Shown piece by piece: positions 32,450 to 38,029 of a stretch of DNA of 38,029 nucleotides. Numbering within the stretch: position 1 is the stretch's first letter; each line of letters begins with the position of its first letter. The notes under the pieces were generated by a model that worked only from the letters and a program-made list of their open reading frames with translations, ran no database searches and had not been told where the DNA came from. Origin of the DNA: a virus. The position numbers were made by a program, and so were the translations under genes. The DNA is taken from IMG/VR virus record IMGVR_UViG_3300013131_000107, positions 1 to 38,029 of that record; one strand, given 5' to 3'.

Positions 32450-32482
32450 TCGATCTGTAATCTTTTTAAAATTACACTGCGG

Positions 32483-32488
32483 TAAATA
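32483..32488 (+). promoter_or_regulatory. Late promoter (TAAATA), start codon at predicted +1
   Basis: GTAAATAT, then 5 bases, then ATG 32494 (plcP). A TGTAAT/ATTACA hairpin lies just upstream. Confidence 0.65.
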
Positions 32489-32493
32489 TTGCT

Positions 32494-33339
32494 ATGCAAA
32501 AAACTTATCGCTCTATCTTTATCAGCGATGTCCATCTCGGGGTCAAAGACTGCAAGGCCGAGGCATTAAATAACTTCCTCAAACACAACACCTGCGATAC
32601 CTTATATCTCGTAGGTGATATCATCGATGGTTGGAAAGTTCAACAGAACCGACTGCGATGGAAGCAGAGCCATACCAATGTGGTACGCCGTATCCTGGGT
32701 CATGCCAAGCGAGGTACCCGAGTGATCTATGTGGCAGGCAATCACGATGAGTTCCTGCGCCCTCTCATACCCTACGGACTATCGTTTGGTTCTGTAGAGA
32801 TACACAATCAGACTGAACACATAGGTGCGGACGGCAAGCATTATCTAGTAGTACACGGTGATCTATTCGATGGCATCACTAGACTGGCACCTTGGCTATC
32901 ATTCTTAGGAGACAAAGCCTATGACTTCATACTGGGATTTAATACTACTTTCAATCGTTGGCGGCATCGTCTTGGCCTGGGTTATTGGAGCCTATCTAAG
33001 TATCTTAAACATAAGGTCAAAAAAGCCGTAGATTTCATCTTCGAGTTTGAACGTAATCTCGCTACCTACTGCAAGAAGAAAGGCTACGATGGAGTGATCT
33101 GTGGTCACATACACACAGCAGAAATCAAGACTATAGATGGAGTGATCTACATGAACGATGGTGACTGGACAGAGTCCTGCACCGCATTGGTGGAACATCA
33201 TGACGGTCGGTGGAAGATCATAACCTGGACCAAGGAGAGCGACGATGTGGTTGATGATATTGATAGCGGTGAACATAAACAATCCCGCCGACGTGCCCGG
33301 AAGAGTGATCCTGCAGTTCCCCACACAGGCACAATGTGA
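32494..33339 (+). CDS. plcP: PlcP-like phospholipase C (calcineurin-type phosphoesterase)
   Basis: 281 residues. Metallophosphoesterase motifs: DVH (D12, H14), GDIIDGW (D42), GNHDE (N83, H84), HGD (H121), GHIH (H205, H207). The overall pattern (YWSLSKYLKHKVKKAV, GDWTESCTALVEHHDGR) fits the COG2908 branch that includes Sinorhizobium PlcP, often mis-annotated as UDP-2,3-diacylglucosamine hydrolase. PlcP removes phospho-head groups from phospholipids to give diacylglycerol during phosphate starvation. An agt-like gene two genes downstream supports PlcP over LpxH. The last 30 residues are unusual because they overlap another gene. Leaderless start after TAAATA. Confidence 0.88.
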   Translation: MQKTYRSIFISDVHLGVKDCKAEALNNFLKHNTCDTLYLVGDIIDGWKVQQNRLRWKQSHTNVVRRILGHAKRGTRVIYVAGNHDEFLRPLIPYGLSFGSVEIHNQTEHIGADGKHYLVVHGDLFDGITRLAPWLSFLGDKAYDFILGFNTTFNRWRHRLGLGYWSLSKYLKHKVKKAVDFIFEFERNLATYCKKKGYDGVICGHIHTAEIKTIDGVIYMNDGDWTESCTALVEHHDGRWKIITWTKESDDVVDDIDSGEHKQSRRRARKSDPAVPHTGTM

Positions 33340-33418
33340 ACAAGCCCTCGACAGTATGACTTACTGGTTGAAGTTTGAAAGATTTAAGGTAGAAGGAATC
33401 TGTATCAAAAAATCTTAA
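33245..33418 (+). CDS. 57-aa phage protein overlapping the end of plcP
   Basis: ATG 33245 lies inside plcP in another frame with a perfect AAGGAG 7 bases before it, and the gene overlaps plcP by 95 bp. It has a hydrophobic start (MWLMILIAVN), then GRVILQFPTQAQCEQALDSM and TYWLKFERFKVEG, a pattern I recall from small T4-like phage proteins. Function unknown. Confidence 0.68.
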   Translation: MWLMILIAVNINNPADVPGRVILQFPTQAQCEQALDSMTYWLKFERFKVEGICIKKS

Positions 33419-33428
33419 AGGAGCGATC

Positions 33429-33953
33429 ATGACAACGATTTTGATGATTGGGATTTTACTATTATTGGCATCACCACTCCGTGCGGATCAAATAAGAACT
33501 GCCGGAGATTATCTACAGATAGGCATACCAGCCTATGCCATAGGTAGAGCGGTCGGAGACAGAGATCACGAAGGACTGAGACAGATGGGCAATGGTTTTT
33601 TGACCAACACCTTGACTACAGGTGTGCTCAAAGAAACCACACTACAGCTTAGGCCTGATGGTGGAGATCGCAGGAGTTTCCCTAGCGGACATACTTCAGC
33701 GGCGTTCCAAGGAGCGGCGTTCGTGCATCGTAGATATGGTTTGGAAGAAGCCTGGCCCTTGTATGCGGGAGCCACATTCGTTGGTTATAGTCGTGTTCAT
33801 GCTCGCAGACACTATTGGAGAGATGTCATCGCAGGAGCAGCGGTTGGTATAGGCAGCAGTTGGTTGATGACCGAACCCAAGAAAGACTACCAACTACTGG
33901 TAAACAGCGATGGTAAATCATTGCAGTTATCTTATCATCGCAGATTTGATTAA
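33429..33953 (+). CDS. PAP2-family lipid phosphatase
   Basis: 174 residues with AAGGAGCGA before the ATG. Signal peptide or first helix (1-19), then the PAP2 motifs: K68..RP (75-76), PSGH (85-88) and SR..H..D (S121, R122, H128, D132), all intact. Acts on phosphorylated lipids such as phosphatidic acid, phosphatidylglycerol phosphate or undecaprenyl pyrophosphate at the membrane. Between a PlcP-like and an Agt-like gene, dephosphorylating phosphatidic acid to diacylglycerol is the most economical role (inference). Confidence 0.88.
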   Translation: MTTILMIGILLLLASPLRADQIRTAGDYLQIGIPAYAIGRAVGDRDHEGLRQMGNGFLTNTLTTGVLKETTLQLRPDGGDRRSFPSGHTSAAFQGAAFVHRRYGLEEAWPLYAGATFVGYSRVHARRHYWRDVIAGAAVGIGSSWLMTEPKKDYQLLVNSDGKSLQLSYHRRFD

Positions 33954-33979
33954 AAAATCACTGGGAAGAAAGAAACAAT

Positions 33980-33985
33980 TAAATA
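33980..33985 (+). promoter_or_regulatory. Late promoter (TAAATA), start codon at predicted +1
   Basis: TTAAATAC, then 5 bases, then ATG 33991 (agt-like). Confidence 0.65.
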
Positions 33986-33990
33986 CCAAT

Positions 33991-34992
33991 ATGGTTAAAC
34001 GCATCCTAGTCGTAACAGATAATCTCCAGGATCAGATCAATGGTGTGGTCACAACTTTTAAGAACATCGAGGCGCTGGCTGTTTTGGACGGGTATCGCGT
34101 TCTATACCTTGATCCCGGGCAGTTCTTACATTTTAGTTGCCCAGGCTACCCTGAGGTTAAACTTTCAATTCCTTGGCAGATCGGCAAGAAGATTGAGGCG
34201 CTGGCTCCGGATCATATACACCTCGCCACGGAAGGTCCTATTGGTCTGTGTGCTAGACTTTATCTTGACCAACGCGGCTATCGTTACAATACTAGTTACC
34301 ACACTAAGTTTCCTGAATTCATAAAAAAAATATACGGCATTCCAGAATTCGCCACTTATGCCTATGTACGCTGGTTCCACAAGCATTCAGGTCGTGTGCT
34401 CACAACCACAGATACCATGGTCAACGATCTACGAGCGCACGGCTTTGGTGGAGACATCCATGCCTGGACCCGCGGTGTTGATCGCGGAATATTTGATCCC
34501 AGCCTAAGGAATAGGACTGATGACGAGAAGATCCTGCTGAATGTGGGCCGTGTCAGCAAAGAAAAAGGTCTGGATGATTTCTGCCAGTTAAAGATACCAG
34601 GTACACGCAAGATAGTAGTAGGCGATGGACCTTATAGAGCACAACTGGAGAAAAAATATCCTGATGTCAATTTCGTAGGCGTCAAGACTGGTAGGGCTCT
34701 GGCTGAATACTATGCCAACGCAGATGTGTTCGTTTTCCCTTCAAAGACTGATACATTCGGCGTAGTTATAATAGAAAGTCTGGCAGTAGGCACACCCGTG
34801 GCTGCTTATCATGTTCCTGGACCCAGAGACATATTGGAACCAGGCATCACTGGCTACATGGGCCCATGCCTCGCAGATGCTGTGGAGATCTGCCTAGACT
34901 ACGATAGAGATCGCGTGGTCACTGCCAGCCAAAAGTGGACCTGGGATCGCTGCTGGCAGATATTTCGAGACAATCTAGTAGAAGTCGTTTAA
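33991..34992 (+). CDS. agt: GT4 glycosyltransferase, Agt-like (glycolipid synthesis)
   Basis: 333 residues from ATG 33991 (MVKRILVVTDN); the frame to 33910 is rejected. N-terminal half: NLQDQINGVVTTFKNIEALA, IHLATEGPIGLCARL, YHTKFPEF; C-terminal half: LLNVGRVSKEKGLDDF, VVGDGPYR, FPSKTDTFGVVIIESLAVGT (the EX7E region). This matches the GT4 subfamily that includes the Agt enzyme of marine alphaproteobacteria, which adds glucose or glucuronic acid to diacylglycerol. Sugar and acceptor specificity cannot be read from sequence. It follows plcP and PAP2 and has its own leaderless late promoter. It ends 4 bp into the convergent HAD gene. Confidence 0.88.
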   Translation: MVKRILVVTDNLQDQINGVVTTFKNIEALAVLDGYRVLYLDPGQFLHFSCPGYPEVKLSIPWQIGKKIEALAPDHIHLATEGPIGLCARLYLDQRGYRYNTSYHTKFPEFIKKIYGIPEFATYAYVRWFHKHSGRVLTTTDTMVNDLRAHGFGGDIHAWTRGVDRGIFDPSLRNRTDDEKILLNVGRVSKEKGLDDFCQLKIPGTRKIVVGDGPYRAQLEKKYPDVNFVGVKTGRALAEYYANADVFVFPSKTDTFGVVIIESLAVGTPVAAYHVPGPRDILEPGITGYMGPCLADAVEICLDYDRDRVVTASQKWTWDRCWQIFRDNLVEVV

Positions 34993-35570
34993 CCTACGAT
35001 TATATCGTAGATTTCTTTCCAATTTTTTACTCTAGGAATTAATGGGTTATCGTAATCCATGTTATGTCCATGTTCCATGATCAATGATTTCAAACCTACC
35101 GTATGTCCTACTTCTGCATTGGTAATTTTGTCCTCGATCCAGTAATAGCCTTTATCACGATATTTTTCTAGCACTTCGTCTTTGTCTGCACCTGTGTTTA
35201 AGATGATGATTTTGCTGAACACAGTCTTGCCAAATAATTTGGCAAGATTCATCTTACGCAGTTCCTGTGCGTTTTCGTCTGCGCTCATTGATGTTATACA
35301 ATGGAAGGTAAAGCCGTGTTCTTCGTGCAGTCTTTTCACATAGAACATAGCATCACGTAGAGGTGGTAAGAATCCCATGTGTGCAGATTCATTAAAGATC
35401 TTTATAAGTTTTTTGGCCTGTTCTTTGTCTATGTCATAGCGTTTGCCTATGTCATATTTGAACTGAGAATCCTCTACAGTCCGAAACCCGTGCTGTTCCA
35501 TCCATACTGAGAACGCATATTCCCAGTCCAGTAAAACTCCGTCCGCGTCTGTTAAAATGATTTTTTTCAT
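34989..35570 (-). CDS. HAD-superfamily hydrolase (193 aa)
   Basis: From ATG 35570 (MKKIILTDADGVLLDW): motif I DADGVLLDW with D8 and D10, motif II ITS, motif III Lys, and a GYYWIEDK motif IV. Similar to 5'-nucleotidase/HAD-like proteins I recall from T4-like cyanophages. It may dephosphorylate nucleotides or sugar phosphates. The start lies 6 bases after TATAAT with no ribosome-binding site, so the mRNA is predicted leaderless. It is the only minus-strand gene among the last 10 kb and uses an early-type promoter. Confidence 0.85.
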   Translation of the reverse strand: MKKIILTDADGVLLDWEYAFSVWMEQHGFRTVEDSQFKYDIGKRYDIDKEQAKKLIKIFNESAHMGFLPPLRDAMFYVKRLHEEHGFTFHCITSMSADENAQELRKMNLAKLFGKTVFSKIIILNTGADKDEVLEKYRDKGYYWIEDKITNAEVGHTVGLKSLIMEHGHNMDYDNPLIPRVKNWKEIYDIIVG

Positions 35571-35576
35571 ACTGTA

Positions 35577-35605
35577 ATTATACACTCAGTTTATGACACT
35601 GTCAA
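35577..35605 (-). promoter_or_regulatory. Sigma-70 promoter, start codon at predicted +1
   Basis: TTGACA (35605-35600), 17 bp, TATAAT (35582-35577), then 6 bases, then ATG 35570. Confidence 0.85.
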
Positions 35606-35663: not shown

Positions 35664-36938
35664 ATGGATAAACGTACACAGAGACAGCAGGCTATTCAAC
35701 AGGATTGGACCCTTAATCCTCGTTGGACTGGAATCAAAAGACCCTATACAGCAGAGGAAGTCGTTCGCTTACAAGGCTCAAAGACTTACCCAAATCATTT
35801 TGCTGTTGATCAATCAAAGAAATTATGGCGTATGCTTCTAGAAGAAGATTACGTACACACCTTAGGTGCCCTTACAGGCATGCAGGCCCTGCAACAGGTC
35901 AAAGCAGGATTAAAGGCTATATATTTAAGCGGATGGCAAGTGGCCGCAGATGCTAATCTAGCCGGAGATATGTATCCTGATCAAAGTTTGTATCCGGCAG
36001 ATTCAGTGCCAGCAGTTGTACGCAGGATTAACAACGCATTTGCTCGAGCAGATCAAATACTGTGGAGTGAAGGCAGCGAAAAGGACTTCTACGCACCGAT
36101 CGTAGCAGATGCAGAAGCAGGATTCGGAGGTGTGCTCAACGCCTACGAACTAATGAAGGACATGATTGAGGCAGGTGCCGCAGGTGTGCATTTTGAAGAC
36201 CAACTGGCCAGTGCCAAGAAGTGTGGTCATATGGGAGGAAAAGTTCTTGTACCAACCCGTGAAGCAGTCAATAAACTTGTTGCCGCTCGTCTCGCTGCTG
36301 ATGTTATGGGCGTGCCTACTCTTGTTATCGCACGAACTGATGCCGAGGCCGGTAACCTTATCACTAGCGATATTGATCCTAATGACGTTCCTTTTCTTAC
36401 TGGTGAAAGAACTGTGGAAGGTTTCTATAGAACCAGAAACGGACTCGAGCAAGCCGTCAGCAGAGCAGTCGCTTACGCAAACTATGCCGACCTTGTATGG
36501 TGTGAAACAGTGAAACCCGATCTTGATTTCGCAAGAGAATTTGCAGAACGAGTCCACAAACACCATCCGGGTAAAATGTTAGCCTATAACTGCTCACCCA
36601 GTTTTAATTGGAGGAAGAATCTAGATGCAAGCACAATTAGCCGTTTCCAACGTGAGTTGGGAGCAATGGGTTACAAATTCCAGTTCATCACTCTCGCTGG
36701 GTTTCATAATCTTAACTATCATATGTTTGATATGGCTTATGGCTATGCTAGGGATGGAATGCCTGCGTTTGTGGAACTACAAGAGAAAGAATTCGCAGCA
36801 GCAGATCGCGGGTTCGAAGCAGTCAAACATCAAAGGGAAGTAGGCACAGGTTATTTTGACTTGTTAACTACCACTGTAGAAAAAGATGCTTCTACACAGG
36901 CTCTAAAAGGTTCAACTGAAGAAGAACAGTTTCATTGA
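35664..36938 (+). CDS. aceA: Isocitrate lyase
   Basis: 424 residues, close to the 434 of E. coli AceA. Splits isocitrate to glyoxylate and succinate, the first step of the glyoxylate shunt. Motifs: [54 protein letters not shown] with catalytic C187 in [22 protein letters not shown], and [10 protein letters not shown]. All catalytic blocks are intact. CGGAGG precedes the ATG. No malate synthase gene is in the window. A hairpin (36943-36973) separates it from the desaturase gene. Confidence 0.95.
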
Positions 36939-36983: not shown

Positions 36984-37694
36984 ATGATAATAATAATTTA
37001 CACCTTGGTGATGGTGCAAATCACCATAGCCTGCGTGACTTTGTATCTACACAGATCCCAGACACACAGGTCGGTTAGTTTCCATCCAGCGGTAAATCAC
37101 TTTATGAGATTCTGGCTTTGGCTGACCACAGGGATGGTGACAAAAGAATGGGTGGCCATACATCGTAAACATCATCAGGCCGCGGACACAGAACAAGATC
37201 CACATTCGCCTAAGTATTATGGTATATGGCGTGTGCTGTTCGGTGGAGCATTCTTATATTATAAAGCCAGCAAAGATCGTATCATGGTTGAAAAACTGGG
37301 AGTAGGCACTCCCGATGACTGGCTCGAACGTAATGTTTACTCCACACACAGTCGCTCGGGTATTCTTTCGATGTTGATCATAGATCTATTGCTCTTTGGA
37401 CCGTGGGGACTGATTGTGTGGGGTATCCAGATGATATGGATACCATTCTTTGCGGCCGGCGTGATCAACGGTGCTGCTCATTGGTGGGGTTATCGAATTA
37501 CCAACACCGCAGACACCAGCAGAAATCTTTGGCCTTGGGCTTTTTTGATTGGCGGTGAAGAATTACACAACGGGCATCACGCAGATGGCTCCAACCCTAA
37601 ATTCAGCAAGCGTTGGTGGGAGTTTGATATAGGATGGATGTATATTAGAATCCTACAGTTTTTTAATTTAGCCAAAATACGCCAGACTACATAA
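36984..37694 (+). CDS. Acyl-lipid/acyl-CoA fatty-acid desaturase (delta-9 type)
   Basis: 236 residues. Three histidine boxes for the di-iron centre: HRSQTH (23-28), HRKHH (60-64), HNGHH (195-199), plus AAHWWGYR (165-171). Hydrophobic segments at 1-22, 40-54, 129-150 and 152-165 make it an integral membrane protein. Shorter than most bacterial delta-9 desaturases because the N-terminal part is reduced to one helix. It introduces a double bond into membrane acyl chains and needs oxygen and an electron donor. No ribosome-binding site is obvious, and upstream CATAAAAC is only a poor late-promoter match, so it may be translated from the aceA transcript. Confidence 0.9.
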   Translation: MIIIIYTLVMVQITIACVTLYLHRSQTHRSVSFHPAVNHFMRFWLWLTTGMVTKEWVAIHRKHHQAADTEQDPHSPKYYGIWRVLFGGAFLYYKASKDRIMVEKLGVGTPDDWLERNVYSTHSRSGILSMLIIDLLLFGPWGLIVWGIQMIWIPFFAAGVINGAAHWWGYRITNTADTSRNLWPWAFLIGGEELHNGHHADGSNPKFSKRWWEFDIGWMYIRILQFFNLAKIRQTT

Positions 37695-37736: not shown

Positions 37737-38029
37737 ATGGAAGCAAGATACAAAGAACTAGAAACACTGGTAGGCAAGTTTGTTCGAGACGTACCCCAAG
37801 GCCAAGCATACGCAGATAGGCTAGCAGAAGAACTAGAAATCATAGCACGACTAGGTTTCGCCAAACACTTTCTACGAGTAGTAGAGATACTGAATCTCAC
37901 TCGAGACATCCCCCACATAACTAGAGGATCAGCAGGCAGCAGTCTTATCTGTTGGCTGTTAGGCATATCAGATGTAGATCCTATACAAGAAAGAATACCT
38001 TTATCACGCTTTATGAATCCCAAGCGTGA
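37737..38029 (+). CDS. DnaE-like DNA polymerase III alpha, partial, lacking the PHP domain
   Basis: The gene runs off the right edge; 97 residues are visible. RLAEELEIIARLGFAKHFLR and HITRGSAGSSLICWLLGISD followed by VDP and RFMNPKR correspond to the start of the polymerase core of bacterial DnaE (GRGSAAGSLVAY..ITDIDP..FERFLNPER). In DnaE this lies several hundred residues from the N-terminus, after the PHP domain; here it begins at about residue 15. Whether the full catalytic core follows cannot be seen. Confidence 0.8.
   Translation, partial: MEARYKELETLVGKFVRDVPQGQAYADRLAEELEIIARLGFAKHFLRVVEILNLTRDIPHITRGSAGSSLICWLLGISDVDPIQERIPLSRFMNPKR

Follow-up and report, generated by a model that had tools for sequence, protein, structure and literature searches.

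In P. aeruginosa, the conversion of phospholipid to glycolipid by PA3219, PA3218 and PA0842 has been proven by mutants, lipidomics and purified glycosyltransferases (PMC8528852). Bacterial plcP is Pho-regulated, the plcP-agt1 operon (PA3219-PA3218) harbouring a Pho box, and the PlcP/Agt glycolipids protect against polymyxin B (PMC8528852). A review furthermore ties lipid renovation to phage receptors (PMC9804370). Phosphate-starvation phospholipases C of the PlcP type are also described for S. meliloti and for Phaeobacter. Among T4-like phages, Pelagibacter phage Mosig and Synechococcus phage S-SRM01 harbour a PlcP-family gene, which is annotated as LpxH; in Mosig this gene adjoins a PstS-like gene. 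The genome announcement of Mosig mentions neither lipids nor phosphate. Aquatic phages likewise carry phosphate-related host genes, pstS among them.

Here we analysed a stretch of 38,029 bases (47% GC), the IMG/VR virus record IMGVR_UViG_3300013131_000107, which we refer to as the window. Its upstream part holds phage genes, namely those for a DNA ligase (phrog_114), a phage ferredoxin (phrog_3704), HNH endonucleases, phrog_1314 and phrog_1297. The following features were found in its downstream part:

32480..32488, + strand: T4-late-promoter-like motif CGGTAAATA, 5 nt before the plcP start codon
32494..33339, + strand: plcP, predicted calcineurin-type metallo-phospholipase C of the PlcP family (Metallophos E 4.5e-12; identities, motifs, tree)
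33245..33418, + strand: conserved small gene of 57 aa, third member of the cassette, overlapping the plcP 3′ end in frame +1 relative to it
33429..33953, + strand: PAP2-family phosphatase of 174 aa with putative signal peptide (Pfam PAP2 E 1.8e-14), an insertion private to the window contig
33991..34992 (open frame from 33910), + strand: predicted agt-like GT4 glycosyltransferase (GT4 E 4.4e-22; Agt1 homology, tree, model)
34989..35585, − strand: HAD/NT5C-like phosphatase, phrog_420 (E 3.3e-37), syntenic in several cassette phages
35664..36938, + strand: isocitrate lyase aceA (NCBIfam PRK15063, 758.6 bits, cut-off 562)
36984..37694, + strand: DesA-type fatty acid desaturase (NF049918, 398 bits, narrowly missing the cut-off of 400), syntenic in several cassette phages
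37737-38027: DnaE-like gene (short DNA polymerase III alpha), cut by the window end

The initial annotation had described three intact enzyme genes in a row with their active-site motifs, and the + strand open reading frames 32494-33339, 33429-33953 and 33910-34992 (Metallophos, PAP2 and GT4, respectively) bear this out. The locus resembles plcP-agt1 of P. aeruginosa in its homologous enzymes (58% and 40% identity) and in the order, orientation and motifs of the genes. On the phage side there are in addition a small overlapping gene at the joint, an exchange between GT4 and GT2 glycosyltransferases and a T4-late-like motif, whereas the Pho box is a feature of the bacterial operon (PMC8528852). 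The PlcP of S. meliloti shares 47% identity and the same calcineurin motifs, but its gene has no adjoining glycosyltransferase, unlike the phage cassette. The same holds for Mosig and S-SRM01 (50% and 36% identity), in which neither a glycosyltransferase nor the small gene adjoins the plcP-like gene.

The phosphoesterase gene is intact and encodes 281 aa. The protein is 57.8% identical over 237 aa to PA3219 of P. aeruginosa, 46.9% to PlcP of S. meliloti and 50% to the pelagiphage protein of Mosig, as against 24% to E. coli LpxH over 123 aa only. PA3219 was assigned to our locus L188 from the order of its operon, in which plcP is followed by a glycosyltransferase gene and an adenylate cyclase gene, which we take to be cyaB (PA3217). 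The metal-binding motifs DxH, GD, GNHD, H and GHxH are all present and align with those of PA3219 and S. meliloti PlcP, and the window protein and its relatives read GNHDE, as PlcPs do, where LpxH has GNRDF. Both NCBIfam equivalog cut-offs for LpxH were failed (43.7 versus 134 and 34.6 versus 190.35 bits). In a tree that was made by a quick search and has a very long LpxH branch, all sampled phage PlcPs formed one clade (support 99) beside Hyphomonadaceae and Mosig (support 81); because of these properties of the tree, we weighed identities and motifs above its root. Taken together, the protein is well supported as a predicted phospholipase C of the PlcP family, in agreement with the earlier assignment to PlcP, and an identity as LpxH was rejected on its failed cut-offs, its GNHDE motif and its closeness to PA3219.

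Structure prediction had been proposed as a further check. The PlcP model was of moderate confidence (pLDDT 71.9) and had LpxH as its top structural matches; no PlcP structure was found among the matches, so that the model cannot separate PlcP from LpxH. The GT4 model showed a GT-B fold with confidence (pLDDT 89.9) and fits many GT4 enzymes, including BshA, sucrose-phosphate synthase and PimA, such that the fold names neither substrate nor acceptor.

For the GT4 protein, the most likely start is the methionine at 33991 rather than 33910, because relatives start there and the segment 33910-33953 overlaps the PAP2 gene. The protein aligned over its full length with Agt1 (PA3218; 40.4% identity over 332 aa) and was 42% identical to the glycosyltransferase adjoining plcP in Sphingomonas, while matches to E. 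coli WaaG, WaaB, WcaC and WcaI were short or insignificant. It has the D(x7)E motif in common with Agt1, and its catalytic stretch PS-x-TDTFG-x-V-x-IE matches that of Agt1. In bacterial plcP loci of several genera, the same GT4 lies immediately downstream of plcP, and in our tree the phage GT4s formed one clade (support 95) among these plcP-linked bacterial enzymes, a grouping that rests more on distances than on the root, because the outgroup is long-branched. These data strongly support an Agt-like enzyme, predicted to glycosylate diacylglycerol. A grouping with O-antigen or capsule enzymes, which would have spoken against the lipid pathway proposed in the initial annotation, was not seen, and such a role is disfavoured by the remoteness from the Waa and Wca enzymes.

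To see how the genes are arranged in other viruses, we scanned viral contigs and found at least 594 PlcP relatives. Among the best 80 of these, 37 have a GT4 and 42 a GT2 gene downstream on the same strand, and the last lies at a contig edge. Dereplication at 95% PlcP identity gave 99 viral PlcPs, with GT4 next in 42, GT2 next in 56 and one cut by the contig end. A glycosyltransferase thus stands next to plcP in 98 of 98 informative loci, far beyond chance. This set comprises the nearest members of a larger population, and rarer arrangements may exist at greater distance. Searching from the glycosyltransferase side gave the same picture: plcP is directly upstream of GT2 in 77/77 informative loci (three further loci were truncated at the start of their contig) and at most 0.8 kb upstream of GT4 in 21/21. 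The two glycosyltransferases, GT-B enzymes in the case of GT4 and GT-A in that of GT2, belong to different fold classes. That unrelated enzymes replace each other next to plcP is as expected if both act on the PlcP product. GT2 takes the place of GT4 in most relatives; its best NCBIfam hit, TIGR04283, is far below cut-off, and none of the bacterial loci examined has a GT2 downstream of plcP. The enzyme would act on diacylglycerol, but as no close characterised homologue was found, a non-lipid acceptor is also possible.

At a few loci the joint between the two genes is rearranged. At L010:1781-1927, a frame fuses the GT4 start to a C-terminal fragment of PlcP and is followed by a second small open reading frame and an ATP-grasp-like gene, which looks like a relic of rearrangement. 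By eye, homing-endonuclease-like genes were seen between plcP and GT4 at L028:1278-2138 and L095:9387-10007, suggesting that mobile genes target the joint.

The same searches changed the view of the PAP2 gene, which had been taken for a member of the set that feeds phosphatidic acid into the diacylglycerol pool. In GT4-bearing relatives, GT4 directly follows plcP, and it is in the window that PAP2 is inserted between them; no other locus among about 180 viral plcP loci has PAP2. The fixed order therefore concerns plcP and the glycosyltransferase, whereas the order plcP-PAP2-agt is found only in the window. Proteins about 40% identical to this PAP2 were found on only two unrelated viral contigs, in other settings. 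Its motifs KX6RP, PSGH and SRx5Hx3D, read from the sequence, are intact, and it matches LpxE weakly. Its N-terminus reads, by eye, as a signal peptide, which would place the active site in the periplasm, across the inner membrane from a cytosolic PlcP and Agt, and PAP2 would then not be a simple feeder of the cytosolic diacylglycerol pool. As a gene private to the window contig and predicted to be periplasmic, PAP2 was rejected as part of the cassette.

Instead, we found a third cassette gene that the initial annotation had missed. An open reading frame of 56-58 aa starts within the plcP 3′ end and stops before the glycosyltransferase gene in 91 of 100 loci (90/99 after dereplication). It accompanies both GT4 and GT2 cassettes, once per contig, and was not seen away from the cassette; about 80 bacterial plcP loci lack it, as do Mosig and S-SRM01. 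Residues W2, P14, D16, P18, C31, K43 and C53 are invariant. In 70 dereplicated copies, pN/pS of the small frame was 0.38 in its free part and 0.39 within the plcP overlap, while that of the plcP frame in the overlap was 2.0. It is thus the small frame that is under purifying selection, with the plcP tail carried along passively. The gene is thus conserved, coding and phage-specific. A search of Pfam gave no convincing match, PHROG gave weak ones only (best phrog_5579, E 1.5e-4) and a phage collection gave none. From its hydrophobic N-terminus, we would guess that the protein is a membrane-associated partner of both enzymes.

That the contig might be a piece of bacterial chromosome was addressed on its relatives, because no capsid or terminase genes lie within the 38,029-base window. 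Gp23 major capsid genes are present on cassette contigs of 161, 162, 250, 353, 367 and 372 kb, as well as on a fragment of 96 kb, and a terminase was found on those contigs too; such genes were also detected on cassette contigs of 230-349 kb. No Gp23 was found in the cellular control genomes. A contig of 161,938 bases has the gene order of the window (plcP-GT4-HAD-aceA-desA) together with Gp23 and terminase. The carriers of the cassette are T4-like phages: on these relatives the cassette resides in true phage genomes that also encode hallmark proteins, the window itself being without hallmarks. The initial annotation had pointed to a marine alphaproteobacterial setting, but such a host is not supported, and the host hints conflict: the PlcP clade lies near Hyphomonadaceae, whereas the isocitrate lyase of the window is nearest, in a plasmid collection, to Burkholderiales (73%) and the porin in some cassette relatives is also Burkholderiales-like.

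Several neighbours of the cassette deserve mention in their own right. Relatives of the isocitrate lyase, an enzyme of the glyoxylate shunt, were found on 104 viral contigs; several of these contigs also encode Gp23, and many have no plcP in the stretch examined. It is possibly an undescribed phage metabolic gene. In many phages the desaturase gene desA shows synteny with the cassette, frequently near the isocitrate lyase gene, and in several cassette phages a lipase-like alpha/beta hydrolase gene lies beside it (L034:8159-8773; L206 near 9059), whose product could have lipids as substrate too. A short DnaE-like DNA polymerase III alpha gene was also seen in a T4-like context in L082 (L082:3553-5226), where it encodes 558 aa. 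A Gram-negative porin gene, which is unusual on a phage, lies near the cassette in 8 viral loci.

Phage promoters had been noted in this region. No exact copy of the T4 late consensus TATAAATA lies upstream of plcP, and the window as a whole contains 1 match versus 1.27 expected; a sigma-70 scan was below chance as well (4 versus 8.0). What stands is the related motif RTAAATA, which immediately precedes plcP in the window and lies within 50 nt upstream of it in 52/99 viral loci, as compared to 1.6% of random 50-nt segments, a count that is inflated by the shared ancestry of the upstream regions. Judged by its letters, the motif resembles a degenerate T4-type late promoter.

We propose that the cassette is the phage counterpart of the plcP-agt pair with which bacteria remodel their lipids. 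At the cytosolic face, PlcP would cleave membrane phospholipids into diacylglycerol and a phospho-head group, and the adjoining glycosyltransferase would transfer a sugar to the diacylglycerol. The resulting glycolipid would contain no phosphorus and would preserve the integrity of the membrane. For GT4, the sugar would most likely be glucose or glucuronate from a UDP-sugar; in other phages, GT2 would take over this step at the same position, and the 57-aa phage-specific protein could perhaps be a small membrane partner of both enzymes. The infected cell would thereby supply lipid phosphorus for the phage genome, and the changed envelope would be a side effect or a second benefit. We give this reading, in which phospholipid is remodelled via diacylglycerol to glycolipid and phosphorus is freed for the genome, a probability of roughly 0.78. 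A genome of several hundred kb, multiplied by a burst of tens of phages, requires an amount of phosphorus comparable to that in the phospholipid of the cell. In 27 viral loci, a minority, a gene for phage PstS lies no more than 10 kb from plcP; examples of the PstS and porin genes near the cassette are L068:8894-9931 and L050:9005-9910. These loci, together with the adjacency of the two genes in Mosig, lead us to favour phosphate salvage, and we infer that this is the purpose of the cassette. PstS takes up phosphate, whereas the cassette would free phosphate already in the membrane.

The main rival to phosphate salvage keeps the same enzymes and changes the benefit. By modifying the envelope, the cassette could alter charge, receptor access, superinfection or the response to envelope-active peptides and grazers, with phosphate release being incidental. 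This possibility, which we consider unlikely but worth keeping in sight, is in line with the envelope changes and polymyxin B protection conferred by PlcP/Agt glycolipids (PMC8528852), with the link between lipid renovation and receptors (PMC9804370) and with the desaturase often encoded near the cassette, which would point to membrane properties in general. The 27 viral loci with PstS, the Mosig neighbourhood and the Pho regulation of bacterial plcP (PMC8528852) argue against it as the primary purpose, and both benefits may hold together. It is very improbable that the genes form a lipid A or O-antigen module, with an LpxH-type UDP-2,3-diacylglucosamine hydrolase and a glycosyltransferase decorating lipopolysaccharide: the NCBI family name UDP-2,3-diacylglucosamine diphosphatase and the LpxH matches of the PlcP model would suggest it, but the LpxH cut-offs, the GNHDE motif, the 58% versus 24% identity and the Agt-like grouping of GT4 all contradict it. 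Equally slight is the chance that PlcP-made diacylglycerol weakens the membrane or prepares lysis while the glycosyltransferase merely limits toxicity, as the late expression suggested by the T4-late-like motif would allow, since a glycosyltransferase in every informative locus and the GT4/GT2 exchange are more readily explained by synthesis of a product than by a safety valve, and no lysis genes were seen adjoining the cassette.

In the literature searched, which left out preprints and most subscription papers, we found no paper on a phage plcP-agt set, and priority is uncertain. The bacterial plcP-agt pathway is already known; the phage-borne set with its small gene and its exchange of glycosyltransferases appears to be new, although this is not certain. 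A global-ocean survey of auxiliary genes excluded genes on contigs with lipopolysaccharide-island genes, including glycosyltransferases, which, together with the name LpxH, is a possible reason why the cassette was missed.

Returning to the remodelling of lipids for phosphate salvage, a broader picture can be drawn, to which we give even odds. T4-like phages of up to 372 kb would combine a modular PlcP, a phage-invented overlapping partner or tether protein and exchangeable GT4 and GT2 enzymes to make different phosphorus-free lipids, using the host membrane as a phosphorus store, and this would have been overlooked through LpxH naming and glycosyltransferase screens. A misleading name and screens that exclude glycosyltransferases can conceal a common auxiliary function. 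The small overlapping gene adds a new family of phage proteins that is linked to a single pathway, and the 98/98 linkage with the GT4/GT2 exchange makes the function directly testable. Viral takeover of phosphate has so far been studied via uptake genes such as pstS and via nucleotide recycling, and the phosphorus of membrane lipids, salvaged by a widespread phage set, would be a different source. Salvage from lipids would predict a signature in infected cells, with diacylglycerol and glycolipid going up and PE and PG going down.
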